From: Deltaproteobacteria bacterium
GTDB taxonomy: Bacteria > Desulfobacterota > DSM-4660 > Desulfatiglandales > Desulfatiglandaceae
Length of the DNA stretch: 38,905 bases
Direction: 5' to 3'
Assembly: GCA_019309145.1 (NCBI GenBank)
Contig: JAFDGR010000009.1
Location: 1 to 38,905, forward strand
Shown: piece after piece, positions 14,009 through 20,755 of the stretch
Position numbering within the stretch: position 1 is the first letter of the stretch
How the letters are laid out: every line of letters begins with the position of its first letter
The notes under the pieces: generated by a model
Told to the model about the DNA's origin: nothing
What the model saw: the letters and a program-made list of their open reading frames with translations, nothing else
Database searches by the model: none
Program-made: the position numbers and the translations under genes

Positions 14009-15577
14009 TCAGGGGGCCTTTTTCATGGCCACATGAATACCCAGTAGCTTCCAGGAGGCTCGCTCGTGGATATAGGTCAGGCTGAACGTGGTTCTCTGAG
14101 GCCTCGTTGGATAATGACCTTTTACTTTCAGCAATCCCTCCTGGTCGAGGCAGATTTCATTCTCTATGACGGGATCCAATTGATTCAACGCGGCCAATTC
14201 TTTCTGTTTGGCAAAACTCCTGAATGCTTGGCGCAATCTGGCCGGCGTGGCTTGAATCTGCAACGTTGTGGAGACATTGGCATGAAAGGCTTGAAAATTC
14301 CGTTTCTGCGCGGCATTGGCAAAATCACCCATTGTGACAGCGGCTAATCTTTCGACCTCACCTCTTGAGGGCAGGGAAAGACTCTTGATCCTGGTCACGG
14401 CCAGGTGTTTGCCGGTCACGTCATTGACTACGATTTCGAAAACCCGCCAAACATGCATCCACGATAGTAGATTGTCCTCGGGCCGCATGCAAAAAAGCCC
14501 CAGACCCAGGTAACCGGACCGGTGGCCCAGCACCAGAAAGGCTACTTCACCCGGCACCCCCTTGACCATCACATCCCATTTTTCAAGCTTTCCCAAGGGG
14601 GACGCCTGTTTTGGCATCAGGTCCGCTTTGAGGGTGCACTGATCATAGGATAAGGATATACGTTGGAAGTCTTTTTTCAGATTGGCCAGGATCTCCTCTG
14701 GTGTCGCGCCGGTGCCTTTGGAAAACCCGCCGACACGGATAAACCCATAGGTGGTTACGTTTCCCTTGTTTTTATCACGGACCACCAGGCGCATATCCAC
14801 TGCTGTTTGGCCGGCCGGCAGACCTTGATGCTCTTCGATTTCCCAGCTTTTCGGATGATGGAACTTGAATCTAGGCTTTCCGGCGGAGGCAAAAACAGCC
14901 ATTGGGAAGGCATATCGTTGTGAGGCTTTTTGATGCACGGTGAAAGAGATGGCTGCCGCGGCAAAAATTGGGGCATACCGGATAAATTCGGATTCACGTG
15001 CCGACCCCGATACTACGAAAACACGGTCACCGTGACGGGAGAAAGTCAGTCGTGAAAGGAAGGATGAGGAACCCTTGGAAAACCGGGTCAGAACCTCATC
15101 AATCTCGCGCCGGTTATAGGTCCCTTGCCGGCGCACGAGCACATCCACCTTATTTTCCCTGAAATATTGATCCAAAAGGTCATACAGGCTGATTTCCATG
15201 GCCATCCGAGTATACGCCACCTGGATTCTGGCCGAATCTTTATCGTCTCCAGGGGCAGTTTGCTCGGCAAGAGGGACCATGCGCAGCGTATCCTCCTGCA
15301 GCATGTTGGCCGGCACGGTAAGGTGAATGTCGCGCCACCCTTTCGGTATCAACAGGTTAAAGCTAAGATCTTTGCGTTTCAAGGGTTTGTAGGTGAAGTT
15401 GAAATAGGATTTCTTGATCTGTTGTTCACTCGGCAGTTTGTTCTTCTGGAACGCCCGCAAAGGAGCAATAGCGTCGACGGCAAGAAGGACGGGAGTCTTT
15501 GTCATGACCCCTAGGGCCACAGTAACTACCAAACTTGCAACAAGGGTTCGGGCCATCACTTTGGCTGGGAATAGCAT
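14009..15577 (-). CDS. Secreted protein of unknown function, apparently three domains
   Basis: ATG 15577 behind AGGAGGTACC; N-terminal signal sequence; two PsbP/DcrB-like segments (LIPKGWRD..., HHPKSWEIEE...) and an NTF2-like C-terminal segment. Confidence 0.7.
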   Translation of the reverse strand: MLFPAKVMARTLVASLVVTVALGVMTKTPVLLAVDAIAPLRAFQKNKLPSEQQIKKSYFNFTYKPLKRKDLSFNLLIPKGWRDIHLTVPANMLQEDTLRMVPLAEQTAPGDDKDSARIQVAYTRMAMEISLYDLLDQYFRENKVDVLVRRQGTYNRREIDEVLTRFSKGSSSFLSRLTFSRHGDRVFVVSGSARESEFIRYAPIFAAAAISFTVHQKASQRYAFPMAVFASAGKPRFKFHHPKSWEIEEHQGLPAGQTAVDMRLVVRDKNKGNVTTYGFIRVGGFSKGTGATPEEILANLKKDFQRISLSYDQCTLKADLMPKQASPLGKLEKWDVMVKGVPGEVAFLVLGHRSGYLGLGLFCMRPEDNLLSWMHVWRVFEIVVNDVTGKHLAVTRIKSLSLPSRGEVERLAAVTMGDFANAAQKRNFQAFHANVSTTLQIQATPARLRQAFRSFAKQKELAALNQLDPVIENEICLDQEGLLKVKGHYPTRPQRTTFSLTYIHERASWKLLGIHVAMKKAP

Positions 15578-15734
15578 GGGGTACCTCCTTTCGTGCAAAA
15601 AATTTCTCTAACAGGAACGCCTGACACGATCTATCAAACGCACTTCAAAACGAAAGAGGGTGAATGAGATAAGTGAACAAGGGAAAAGGGTCTGCAACAA
15701 TTGGCCTCGCACAGGCCCTTGCTGTCCAGTGATA

Positions 15735-17465
15735 TCACTCCTGCTCAGCGTGCGCAACGTCCCTGAAATAGTGGGCGAACTTGCGGAGACTCAGAGGGGA
15801 AAAACGATCCAGCACGCTTGTGAGTTCCAGGCCGGGGACAAGGACCTTGACGACCGGGATTTCCAGCTCTTCTCTGGTCAGGTCCACGTAGATGGGATGA
15901 AAGCCGTTTCGGAGCAATACTTCCTCAAGGATTCGCAGATCCTTCGACACATCCCCGGATGAAAAACAGGGGAGTTCCTCATCATTGACGGTCCTGAGAC
16001 CTTCCGGCGGGGCCGTCGATCCGAACCAGTAAGGATATGGATAGGGGATTTCAGTCATCGCCGAAGCCACGGCACGTTTTCCGTCCAGGTGTGCCGCGGT
16101 CCCCTTGAGGATGACTCCGCCCGGTCCCTGGATAAAGGCCTTATAGCAGGGTATCCCGAATTCCTGGGTGAGATCCAGGAACTGGATCTGGATGCCTTTT
16201 CGTTTCATTCCTCCGATAATATCATGTACTTTCGGGTCATCGGAACTGAGCAGAAACCGCCGGCTCTCGCAATAGGGCACGACCTTTTCCGCGTCTCTTT
16301 CGATGACCTCCAGGAGCCCGCTCAGTCTTGCCTCCTCCATGGTGCTGCCCGCGCCAAGGCCTGTTGAGGGAAGCCCGCTGGTAAGGCTCATCTCATCAAA
16401 ATTGGCGAACAGAAAGACCATCTGGGCCGGAACAAGGACACGTGAATACCCCTCCGGACCGGCCATTTCTCCCGAAATCCAATAGAGTTCCTGGTCCTCA
16501 TAAGGGACTTCCAGGAGGAACTCATTGGGATCCACGGCCCCATGCCCCCTTTTCAGGTCCGTATAGGTTCCCTTCACCAGTGTCGGAGCGCCCACGTACC
16601 CCGACAGGGTCTCTTCACGGGCCCGGCAAAACGCGGAATATCGTTCTGCTATCTCCATCAGGCACGAGATCCTGGCCTGGTGAATATGCATGCCGCGCCC
16701 GTAGCTTACCAGTTCCCCGCGCAGTCTCCAGTGGTTCCGTCCCTGTTTCAGGGTCACGTCGAGGTTCCAGGGCCTTTCTACCGCGTAGGGGCTTATCGTA
16801 GCCTCGGTCCTGGCCTCCCATCCCCTGAGGATGCCGAGGCGCTCCAGTTTTTTGGTCACCTGTCTCACGGCTTCTTTTGCCCGGGCCCTTCCTTCCTTCT
16901 CATGGCCGCCCGACCCATGCGAGCGTTGTTCCAGCGCGGCCCGCCCGGCCCACCATTGGTCTATGGCTTCGGGATCGTAAGGGATGGAAAGACCAGCCCC
17001 ATCCGGTGGAGGGAGCGGTTTGTGCCAGGTCATATTTTCTGAAAAAAGCCTGAGCCAGTCTTCATGGGATTCATGGCGGGCCGCTCTTGACCAGCGGATG
17101 TAGATGAGAGGACTCGAATGGGTCAGTGCTTCGAGGTTGTTTGCGGTCAACCGGTCCCGGAGGGGTGCGAATTTTTCAGAAACCAGGGAGGCTTCATAGG
17201 CCAATACCCGGAGCAAAGGCTTTCGCTTCCCGGCTTTATCCACAAGATCGAGGAGTTCATCCGGCTCGAGTTTCCCGATACGGTCCAGCGCGTACTGGCG
17301 CATGAACTGGTCATGGGGATGCTCCTCGAGAGCCGCGGCCAGGTCCGTGAAAGTCGGATCTCTCTCAGGGATGCAGGAAAACCAGCCCACTCCCTGGCCC
17401 GTGCCGAGACGTGAAAGCATATAGTGTATGCTGTGGCTTGCAGGAGTTTGAGATGCATCGTTCAC
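15735..17465 (-). CDS. YcaO-domain protein with ~190-aa N-terminal extension
   Basis: YcaO ATP-binding motifs: SCLMEIAER (Sx3ExxER), GAGSTMEEARLSGLLEVIERDA. GTG start 9 nt after the upstream gene's stop. Confidence 0.88.
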   Translation of the reverse strand: MNDASQTPASHSIHYMLSRLGTGQGVGWFSCIPERDPTFTDLAAALEEHPHDQFMRQYALDRIGKLEPDELLDLVDKAGKRKPLLRVLAYEASLVSEKFAPLRDRLTANNLEALTHSSPLIYIRWSRAARHESHEDWLRLFSENMTWHKPLPPPDGAGLSIPYDPEAIDQWWAGRAALEQRSHGSGGHEKEGRARAKEAVRQVTKKLERLGILRGWEARTEATISPYAVERPWNLDVTLKQGRNHWRLRGELVSYGRGMHIHQARISCLMEIAERYSAFCRAREETLSGYVGAPTLVKGTYTDLKRGHGAVDPNEFLLEVPYEDQELYWISGEMAGPEGYSRVLVPAQMVFLFANFDEMSLTSGLPSTGLGAGSTMEEARLSGLLEVIERDAEKVVPYCESRRFLLSSDDPKVHDIIGGMKRKGIQIQFLDLTQEFGIPCYKAFIQGPGGVILKGTAAHLDGKRAVASAMTEIPYPYPYWFGSTAPPEGLRTVNDEELPCFSSGDVSKDLRILEEVLLRNGFHPIYVDLTREELEIPVVKVLVPGLELTSVLDRFSPLSLRKFAHYFRDVAHAEQE

Positions 17466-17473
17466 GTTGAAAG

Positions 17474-18787
17474 CTACCTTCCGCTCAGCTCATAGGTACC
17501 CCTGACCCGGTCCTGGAGATACACAAAGTCGAATTTCCCCCCGCAGGCCTCTTCAAACCAGGTTTGCCCCTGTTCCCGGCACGAGGCACACGCGTTTCTC
17601 GGGATGTGCACGGCAAAGATATGATTTCCCCTGCTGGATGTTGATTCGATGGAAAAGGTCCCTGGGCAATCCACGCAACGGCGGATTTTCTCGTGCTGCT
17701 CTTCCCGGATGCCGTCGGTATCGTAATAGATCTCCCGCTTCCGTGCCACTATTTCACCGGGCTTATAGGTATTTTTCTGAAACTCCTCCCGCAGGAACAT
17801 GCCTTTGAGATCAATCACCTGCTGCTCAATATAGCGGGTAATATCGCCGCGCTGGGCCTGGTAATCCCGGTCATAATTAGGTTCTTTCACAAACCCGGTA
17901 TCCAGGCCTGCCATGGCCATGATGATACCCACATTCACGTAAGGAAGCGCGTTTTCGACGGCGTACCCCCCTTCCAGGACCGCGATATCCGGTTTCAACC
18001 GGGCATTGAGCAGGGCATACCCTCTGGCTGAAAAATTCATATGGGTGATGGGATCATTGAAGTGGTTGTCCTGGCCCGCGGAATTGATCACCAGTTCCGG
18101 TTTGAATTTCTCCAGCAGGGGCATGATGAGCTCTTCCAGCACATACAGGAATCCCTCTTCTCCTGTCTGGGGAGGAAGCGGGATGTTCACGGTGGTCCCT
18201 TCCGCATTGGGGCCGCCCAGCTCATCGGGAAACCCTGATCCGGGATAGAGGGTTCGTCCGTCCTGATGCACGGAGATATAAAGGGTATTGGGATCATGCC
18301 AGAAAATATCCTGGGATCCGTCACCATGGTGGCAGTCCGTGTCCACGACGGCGATTTTTTCGACCCCGTACGTGTCCCGGATATACTCCGCCATCACCGC
18401 TTCATTATTGATGTTACAAAAACCCCGGTTTCCGTGGACCACCCGCATGGCATGGTGACCGGGCGGCCGCACCAGGGCAAAAGCGCTCTCCACTTCTCCC
18501 TTGAGAACCGCATCGGCAGCCACGAGACAACCCCCGGCTGAAATCAGGTGGCTTTCCGTGGTCACTGCCGCCTCGTCGGGAACGCAAAAATGGACCCGTT
18601 GAATGTCCTTTGCCCCGGCAGGCCTGACCCGGTACTCAAAGATTCCCTCCACGTCCAGGAGCCCCTCTTCCATGACCTGATCCTGGGTGTAAAGAAGCCG
18701 CTCCTCTCGCTCAGGATGGGTCGGGCTGATGGCCCAATCATAGGCCGGAAAAAAAACCAATCCCATGCGTCTTGGTGCCTTTATCAT
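17474..18787 (-). CDS. Histone deacetylase / acetylpolyamine amidohydrolase-like deacylase
   Basis: RPPGHHA, DTDCHHGDGSQDIFW, GQDNHFND, LEGGYA. ATG 18787 overlaps the upstream stop codon (ATGA). Confidence 0.9.
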   Translation of the reverse strand: MIKAPRRMGLVFFPAYDWAISPTHPEREERLLYTQDQVMEEGLLDVEGIFEYRVRPAGAKDIQRVHFCVPDEAAVTTESHLISAGGCLVAADAVLKGEVESAFALVRPPGHHAMRVVHGNRGFCNINNEAVMAEYIRDTYGVEKIAVVDTDCHHGDGSQDIFWHDPNTLYISVHQDGRTLYPGSGFPDELGGPNAEGTTVNIPLPPQTGEEGFLYVLEELIMPLLEKFKPELVINSAGQDNHFNDPITHMNFSARGYALLNARLKPDIAVLEGGYAVENALPYVNVGIIMAMAGLDTGFVKEPNYDRDYQAQRGDITRYIEQQVIDLKGMFLREEFQKNTYKPGEIVARKREIYYDTDGIREEQHEKIRRCVDCPGTFSIESTSSRGNHIFAVHIPRNACASCREQGQTWFEEACGGKFDFVYLQDRVRGTYELSGR

Positions 18788-20475
18788 GATCCCTGCTCCT
18801 TTTTCCACTCCCGGATAATCCCCGGCGTAATACACAGCTTTATGCGGATATTCTGCCCGGTACGTGCATACCCCCGGATCATGTTGAAAACCTGTTCCTC
18901 AATAACGGATATCTCCAGGGAATCCGGATCCGCACCAATTTTCACCGCCTGATCCCTGAGCACCTCGTTTGCAAAGGACATGGCGTCCCGGGACTGATAC
19001 CTGTAGGGAATTTTCTGATCTATTCCCGCCTCAGGGATGACAAGCGATCCCCTTTCCGTGTCCGCCTGGACCGTGATCTCGGCCGTGACCCTTGCGACAG
19101 CCGCACCAATGGCATTGGCCACCCCGAAGTGTTTCGGGACCCGGTGGGGTAACCCCAGGGCTTCCCCGAGAAAAGGGCCGACCTGGGGTGCGGGCCCGCC
19201 GATCACCACCAATGAATCCGGAACGATTTTCTCTTCCTGCAGGACCTCATGGATGGTATAAACCGGCCTGGAATTGATCCTCGCCAGGAAAGCCTCCGCG
19301 GAATCGGCAATGGAACGCGCCATGGTTTCAAGAATGCGCTGTGCCATGACCTTCGGGGAAAAGCCCATGGAATCCCCCATTTTTTTCATGGCAATGTTTG
19401 CCGCTTCCCGATCGCCTGCCTCCAGGAGACCCAGGGCAACCATTGCATCGGTGGGCGTCGGTACCGTGCCCCCAAACGCCATGGGTGGTCCCTGCCTGCG
19501 CGGGCCCACGTGCAGTGATCCATCCTTGGCCATGGTGACTTCACTATCCCCGCCGATTCCTATGGAATGGGTGAGCAGAGAACGGACAAGGGTTTGATAC
19601 GGCCCGATCCTGATGCCCCTCGGCTCCAACAGGGGAATTCCAGCCAGTACCACGCTCATATCAGTGGTGGTCCCCCCAACATCCAGCACCAGGGCCGTGC
19701 CAGGGCATCCATCCAGGGCCAGGGCCCCCATCACGCTTGCCGCCGGGCCCGACTGCGCAGTTGCGGCCGGCGAATGCAGGGTGGACGCCAGGTCGATGGT
19801 TCCGCCATCCGGTTTCAGGAGGTACCGCGGCGCTTTCAGGGATTGTTCATTCAGGATTCGCATGAGGGCGCTCATAAATGCTTCATGCACGCGGTGGAGG
19901 GCCGCGTTCAGATAAGTGGTCGCGATTCTTCTTGGGAAATTAAGGCTCCCGGACACCTTATGCCCCAGCGAGATGGCGGAAAACCTCTCCTTTAGCAAAC
20001 CGGCAATCTGCAGTTCGTGGGCCGGATTCCTGACCGAAAATTTTCCCGCGATTCCCGCCACTGAGATCCCTTTTTCGAGGATCGCTTTGGCCGCTTCCTC
20101 AACCGCCTCCCTGTCCACCGGCATTGCTTCAAATCCCTGGTGATCCAGGCAACCCCCTACCACGTGAAAGGAGGGACCCACGGAAAACCACTCCGGGTTC
20201 ATGCCGGGACCGGCAGAGACAATCATTCCAGCCGGTTCCAGCTGATCCTGGACAATGGCATTGGTGGCCATGGTGGTGGAAAAAACCATCCTCTTGATCT
20301 TTCCCGGATCAATGGCACCGGTCACCTTTTCAACGGCCGTTCTCAGTGTCTCGAGCAAATCCTCCCCGGTTGGTGTCTTTGTTTCCGCCAGCACACCCTG
20401 GTCATCCAAAAGCACCGCGTCTGTCTGGGTGCCGCCCACATCCAGTCCCAGTATCATAGCATCACCATTCATCAA
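18784..20475 (-). CDS. Hydantoinase/oxoprolinase A-like (HyuA) ASKHA ATPase
   Basis: GLDVGGTQTDAVLLD, FSTTMATNAIVQ, SGPAASVMGA, VLDVGGTTTDMSVV, GIGGDSEV. Confidence 0.9.
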   Translation of the reverse strand: MMNGDAMILGLDVGGTQTDAVLLDDQGVLAETKTPTGEDLLETLRTAVEKVTGAIDPGKIKRMVFSTTMATNAIVQDQLEPAGMIVSAGPGMNPEWFSVGPSFHVVGGCLDHQGFEAMPVDREAVEEAAKAILEKGISVAGIAGKFSVRNPAHELQIAGLLKERFSAISLGHKVSGSLNFPRRIATTYLNAALHRVHEAFMSALMRILNEQSLKAPRYLLKPDGGTIDLASTLHSPAATAQSGPAASVMGALALDGCPGTALVLDVGGTTTDMSVVLAGIPLLEPRGIRIGPYQTLVRSLLTHSIGIGGDSEVTMAKDGSLHVGPRRQGPPMAFGGTVPTPTDAMVALGLLEAGDREAANIAMKKMGDSMGFSPKVMAQRILETMARSIADSAEAFLARINSRPVYTIHEVLQEEKIVPDSLVVIGGPAPQVGPFLGEALGLPHRVPKHFGVANAIGAAVARVTAEITVQADTERGSLVIPEAGIDQKIPYRYQSRDAMSFANEVLRDQAVKIGADPDSLEISVIEEQVFNMIRGYARTGQNIRIKLCITPGIIREWKKEQGS

Positions 20476-20504
20476 ATTGCCCTTTCCTGATCCTTGCCCG
20501 CCCC

Positions 20505-20541
20505 CCTTGTGCCTTATGCCTTATGCCTTATGCCTTATGCC
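20505..20541. repeat. Tandem heptamer (CCTTATG)n
   Basis: CCTTGTG at 20505-20511, then four exact CCTTATG units at 20512-20539. Confidence 0.9.
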
Positions 20542-20755
20542 TGACAACATATTTCTATACCATGAATCCCGTGAAAGACCAAAGGGATATTGTGCACGCT
20601 GGCCTCAAGGTTGAGGGGGCAAAACCTGTCTCACTGGCACCAACATTGCAGTTAATACCATGGCGCAAAAAAGACTTTCAAAGTAAAAACCGTGGTGGTA
20701 GGATCTCGTGCAAGAGGGACACAAAATCAACACAGCGGGAAAGAGGTAGCGGCAG

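Follow-up and report, generated by a model that had tools for sequence, protein, structure and literature searches.

The conserved unit at this locus is, almost certainly, a pair of genes, encoding a short HyuA protein and an HDAC-fold zinc amidohydrolase, and not the trio of hyuA, HDAC and ycaO genes that a preliminary description of the same DNA had put forward as a single system for amide chemistry or protein modification. By analogy with known enzymes, HyuA and the HDAC have about an even chance of forming an ATP-dependent system that hydrolyses amides or lactams, either as its two subunits or as enzymes obligately coupled to each other. The ycaO gene appears instead to be an accessory or accidental neighbour and is treated here as separate; the data give no support to a modification system made up of all three genes. 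The earlier proposal is thus partly supported, being right about undescribed amide chemistry and wrong about the unit. The relevant features of the window (i.e., the whole stretch of DNA that was analysed, 38,905 nucleotides in length) are these:

18784-20475, minus strand: hyuA, encoding the short HyuA, a core member of the pair; 563 aa as listed; Pfam Hydantoinase_A and Hydant_A_N
17474-18787, minus strand: gene for the HDAC-fold zinc amidohydrolase, a core member of the pair; ATG start; 437 aa; Pfam Hist_deacetyl
17477-17752, minus strand: C-terminal domain of the HDAC protein, residues ~346-437, with invariant C371, C374, C400 and C403
15735-17465, minus strand: ycaO, accessory or accidental neighbour; GTG start; 576 aa; YcaO domain at residues ~250-576, preceded by an N-terminal region with no assigned family

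Coordinates and Pfam matches bear out the three minus-strand open reading frames and the families first assigned to them, the scores lying far over the cut-off for all three genes (230 bits for Hist_deacetyl in the HDAC protein and 169 bits for YcaO in the ycaO product). The ATGA overlap of hyuA and HDAC is present at 18784-18787; the distance from the HDAC stop to the ycaO start, given earlier as 9 nt, measures 8 nt to the GTG. Because relatives open with MILGLDVGG, the true hyuA start is probably an ATG near 20457, downstream of the listed TTG at 20475. In a second genome of the same genus (G001) the order, strands and tight spacing are repeated, with hyuA overlapping HDAC, ycaO following 9 nt after it, and pilB and recN upstream; given this recurrence, the order of the trio is not an assembly error. 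Short GCATAAG tandem repeats (20500-20545) separate hyuA from a divergent pilB-like gene, and downstream of ycaO, at 14009-15598, lies the gene for a 529-aa protein that has no Pfam or NCBIfam match and that is absent from this position in G001. A promoter and terminator scan gave signal no better than that of shuffles.

The evidence for the pair includes its co-occurrence across genomes. Profiles of both proteins were searched against 394 genomes of the window's phylum, each at least 90% complete. The HDAC subfamily was found in 120 of these, and the cognate short HyuA, which is set off from other HyuA proteins by a clear score gap (426 bits down to 268), in 119 of the 120 and in no other genome of the set; in the remaining HDAC genome (G400) the cognate HyuA was recovered by tblastn. 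Within the phylum of a spirochaete genome (G463), for which the genome lists were compared by eye, 26 of 197 genomes carry the HDAC, and it is exactly these 26 that also carry the cognate HyuA. Together, co-occurrence in the two phyla is 146/146, unlinked cases included, a tie between hyuA and HDAC stronger than the preliminary description could have foreseen.

The two genes are adjacent in 101 genomes of the window's phylum and apart in 18; in the second phylum, 2 of the 26 pairs are unlinked. Both phyla thus yield about 125 adjacent pairs, often overlapping by ATGA, and about 20 genomes in which the genes are far apart (in G153, by 2.58 Mb on a single contig of 3.25 Mb), so that the co-occurrence amounts to more than linkage. 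A scan of genomes with the HDAC protein found 80 full-length relatives, and a short HyuA gene lies upstream of HDAC at every locus whose contig extends far enough; these loci span the Desulfobacterota, the Oxalobacteraceae and other Pseudomonadota, the Spirochaetota and the Bacillota, and the two genes usually overlap or stand a few tens of bases apart (about 1.8 kb at one locus). Presence of the pair is patchy even inside genera (g2, g5 and g21), so joint gain or loss of hyuA and HDAC has taken place on many occasions. Pairwise distances among the HyuA and among the HDAC proteins correlate with r = 0.94 (best of 2000 permutations, 0.11), a value that owes something to shared descent. Candidate HyuA-HDAC fusions turned out to be long open frames of GC-rich, artefactual origin, and no fusion was found. 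Nor did the literature that was searched yield a description of the pair.

HyuB is the usual partner of HyuA. Of 47 genomes with the pair, 29 lack it, and three of those 29 are single-contig assemblies. The window itself holds no hyuB, as had been noted, yet three HyuB matches occur on other contigs of the same genome.

Both proteins retain the residues expected of active enzymes of their families. In HyuA, D12 and D265 are invariant among 74 relatives and, in an alignment with 6yra, correspond to CapA D11 and D295, mutation of which lowers caprolactamase activity (PMC8453981). The AF2 model of HyuA (pLDDT 88.3) finds its best fold matches in N-methylhydantoinase (NMHase), the acetone carboxylase beta subunit and caprolactamase; HyuA is predicted to be an ASKHA-type, ATP-dependent carbonyl-activating subunit. 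At five loci of family f79 (L188, L190-L192 and L196) an unlinked HyuA gene directly adjoins ExbB/ExbD/TonB-like genes.

In the HDAC protein, the His dyad (H111 and H112), the zinc ligands (D149, D151 and H153, together with D240) and Y275 are invariant among 73 relatives. Its AF2 model (pLDDT 81.5) shows the HDAC core and, at the C-terminus, a compact domain of strands and helices that lies mostly at pLDDT 84-96. The best PDB matches are bacterial HDAC-like amidohydrolases, all whole-chain matches being to the HDAC core. The C-terminal domain, which carries the four invariant cysteines listed above, has no Pfam match over the cut-off (the weak DnaJ_CXXCXGXG match has an E-value of 0.011); it is probably a zinc ribbon that marks this HDAC subfamily.

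A mechanism for the pair can be modelled on caprolactamase, for which a proposed mechanism has an activated lactim formed on the ATP subunit and then passed to the zinc site of CapB for hydrolysis, CapA and CapB sharing the work as ATP site and zinc site, respectively (PMC8453981). Both kinds of site are intact in alignments of the pair. HyuA would bind ATP and activate, by phosphorylation, the carbonyl of an amide, lactam or ureido group of low reactivity. Cleavage of the activated bond would then fall to the metal-bound water of the HDAC-fold enzyme, which would stand in for the zinc subunit (HyuB or CapB) of known HyuAB enzymes and whose four-cysteine domain would probably dock HyuA or the substrate. 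YcaO would not be required. It is by inference that complex formation, the direction of the reaction and the class of substrate are assigned here, the mechanism being drawn by analogy with CapAB. Here an ATP subunit of the CapA family goes with a zinc hydrolase of another kind, and on the simplest reading the HDAC takes the role of HyuB. That it indeed serves as hydrolytic subunit to a HyuA amidase driven by ATP, and is hence a non-homologous replacement for HyuB in several phyla, is a tentative proposal with somewhat less than an even chance of being correct. HyuA is without the C-terminal region of the ~700-residue CapA/HyuA proteins, so the pair could not just take over the known HyuA-HyuB interface. 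HDAC enzymes, moreover, normally cleave amides without ATP, which, like the lack of fusions, counts against an ATP-coupled model.

If the model were correct, then a pair that is widespread in anaerobes (sulfate reducers, syntrophs, spirochaetes and Oxalobacter), and whose members have so far gone by no more than the generic labels of their families, 'hydantoinase' and 'histone deacetylase', would constitute a single enzyme; HDAC chemistry would be coupled to ATP, an energy-coupled form so far unknown; and a missing housekeeping or damage-repair reaction would be indicated.

Neighbouring genes bear on the substrate. Across the loci examined there is no constant third gene beside the pair: CMD/AhpD-like, EpmA-like, patatin, RlmN, LarE-like and DUF362 genes each recur in some lineages only. 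Because no pathway neighbour is constant, a housekeeping substrate, such as a lactam that forms spontaneously or a metabolite carrying an N-acyl group, is suggested in preference to a peripheral catabolic one; a housekeeping or repair function also agrees with retention of the pair in single copy within small genomes such as that of Oxalobacter. Five relatives (L036, L039, L040, L044 and L051) have a LarE-like PP-loop gene upstream of hyuA-HDAC. At three spirochaete loci (L075, L091 and L102) a 61-aa cysteine-containing protein with an ECPVCSRARKK-like motif is encoded upstream of hyuA; the one such protein searched has no Pfam match.

The pair might alternatively belong to a sequential small-molecule pathway with no ATP-dependent amidase, in which, for example, the HDAC deacylates a polyamine or amino acid that bears an N-acyl or N-carbamoyl group and HyuA acts upon another bond. 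HDAC-fold acetylpolyamine amidohydrolases are known, and in four genomes of f42/g107, where the two genes are apart, the HDAC gene adjoins a carboxynorspermidine synthase-like gene (e.g., L183 3620-8328, L195 1591-5366 and L181 5940-8804), with nspC also present in two of them (L183 and L195), an arrangement that would suit a plain polyamine deacylase. It probably reflects a single evolutionary event, however; nspC scores over the cut-off in 14 of 40 pair-bearing versus 6 of 40 pair-less genomes and is not in the window's genome, and arginase-family genes do not separate the two kinds of genome either. This reading is accordingly judged unlikely. A polyamine pathway as the general answer, an idea prompted by the g107 neighbours, was set aside, as the distribution of polyamine genes among genomes does not follow that of the pair. 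Polyamine deacetylases form one cluster in a survey of bacterial deacylases (PMC11532494). At L183, the gene for a 116-aa protein overlaps the HDAC gene.

Somewhat less probable still is that the HDAC is a protein lysine deacylase targeted by its zinc ribbon, possibly to translation, with HyuA regulating it or else supplying or removing the acyl group. The classical HDAC fold and residues are in keeping with this, as are the EpmA-like aminoacylase and RlmN genes downstream of the pair in some lineages and the RsmB-like gene upstream in Oxalobacter; but these neighbours differ by lineage, most loci are without any of them, and such a deacylase gives no reason for the need for HyuA in every genome.

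That in this lineage YcaO, HyuA and the HDAC work as a single system to modify proteins or peptides, as first suggested, is very improbable: against the tight co-orientation of the trio in the window's genome and G001, its linkage in G015 and G032, and a weak association between YcaO and the pair among 61 relatives (7/10 vs 10/51; Fisher p 0.003, uncorrected for descent) stand the absence of ycaO beside all remaining pair loci examined, orthologues that are mostly unlinked, and three orthologues in genomes without the pair. Linkage is confined to those four genomes, in two genera (the window's own and g15), and other orthologues occur in unrelated contexts, including proS-relA-rpmB-mpl and ddl/proC. 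The preliminary description had staked its proposal on conservation of the trio outside this genome: for the trio such conservation nearly fails, while the pair is clearly conserved. The YcaO tree is compatible with linkage to the pair having arisen once or twice, and, by search and tree within the order searched, clear members of the YcaO clade are found in the window's family only.

The window YcaO keeps the core ATP-site residues E271, E274, E378, E386, E389 and R390; the positions of E. coli S184, Q195 and R286 are changed. The R286 equivalent, which is S468 in the window YcaO, is lost from all 11 clade members (the window's, encoded at 15735-17465, and ten orthologues), which have a TEIPYPYPYWFG signature in its place. 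The protein scores 117 bits against TIGR03266 (TfuA-linked/McrA thioamidation; cut-off 365) and 116 bits against TIGR03604 (TOMM cyclodehydratase; cut-off 219). TfuA, reported earlier as missing from the window, was not found anywhere in its genome, and is absent from 11 YcaO-bearing relatives, a Methanosarcina acetivorans control being positive. The earlier view that this is not a canonical TOMM, McrA-thioamidation or 5-oxoprolinase locus is supported. EcYcaO-type uL16 thioamidases are strongly acidic (pI ~4.4; PMC13063428); the window YcaO, at pI 5.81 as compared with 4.38 for EcYcaO, is not.

The same genome encodes a second YcaO, on contig C160 (2577-5156, locus L128), a YcaO-TPR protein that resembles D. 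vulgaris DVU2210, which is associated with molybdate sensitivity (PMC7774982). Immediately upstream of its gene is a LarE-like PP-loop gene, which hints at sulfur transfer and thioamidation; a gene of this kind also precedes hyuA at the five hyuA-HDAC loci noted above.

Compared with known systems, the window YcaO shares with other YcaO enzymes (EcYcaO in uL16 thioamidation, the YcaO-TPR protein DVU2210, and the TfuA-linked and TOMM enzymes) a YcaO domain with E271/E274 and E378/E386/E389/R390; it differs in that its genome lacks TfuA, in its less acidic pI (5.8, not 4.4), in having no C-terminal TPR and, relative to EcYcaO, in the replacements at the three E. coli positions. The DVU2210-like protein of this genome is the product of the C160 gene, a different gene from the window's ycaO. 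With the classical bacterial deacylases HdaH, Kdac1, AcuC and ApaH, the HDAC shares the fold and all catalytic and zinc residues; it differs in that its identity to ordinary HDACs is ~40%, over the catalytic core only, and in having the extra C-terminal Cys4 domain and an obligate HyuA partner. The main text of the 2024 deacylase survey mentions neither hydantoinase nor zinc finger (PMC11532494). With the HyuAB/oxoprolinase family, that is, caprolactamase CapAB, N-methylhydantoinase and 5-oxoprolinase, the pair shares HyuA homology and fold, the ATP-site aspartates and, on the mechanism proposed here, the split between one subunit for ATP and another, with zinc, for hydrolysis; unlike that family, it has no HyuB, and its HyuA is shorter and is paired with an unrelated zinc protein of the HDAC fold. 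By this analogy, HyuA-HDAC would be a variant of the HyuA-type kind of ATP-dependent amidase.
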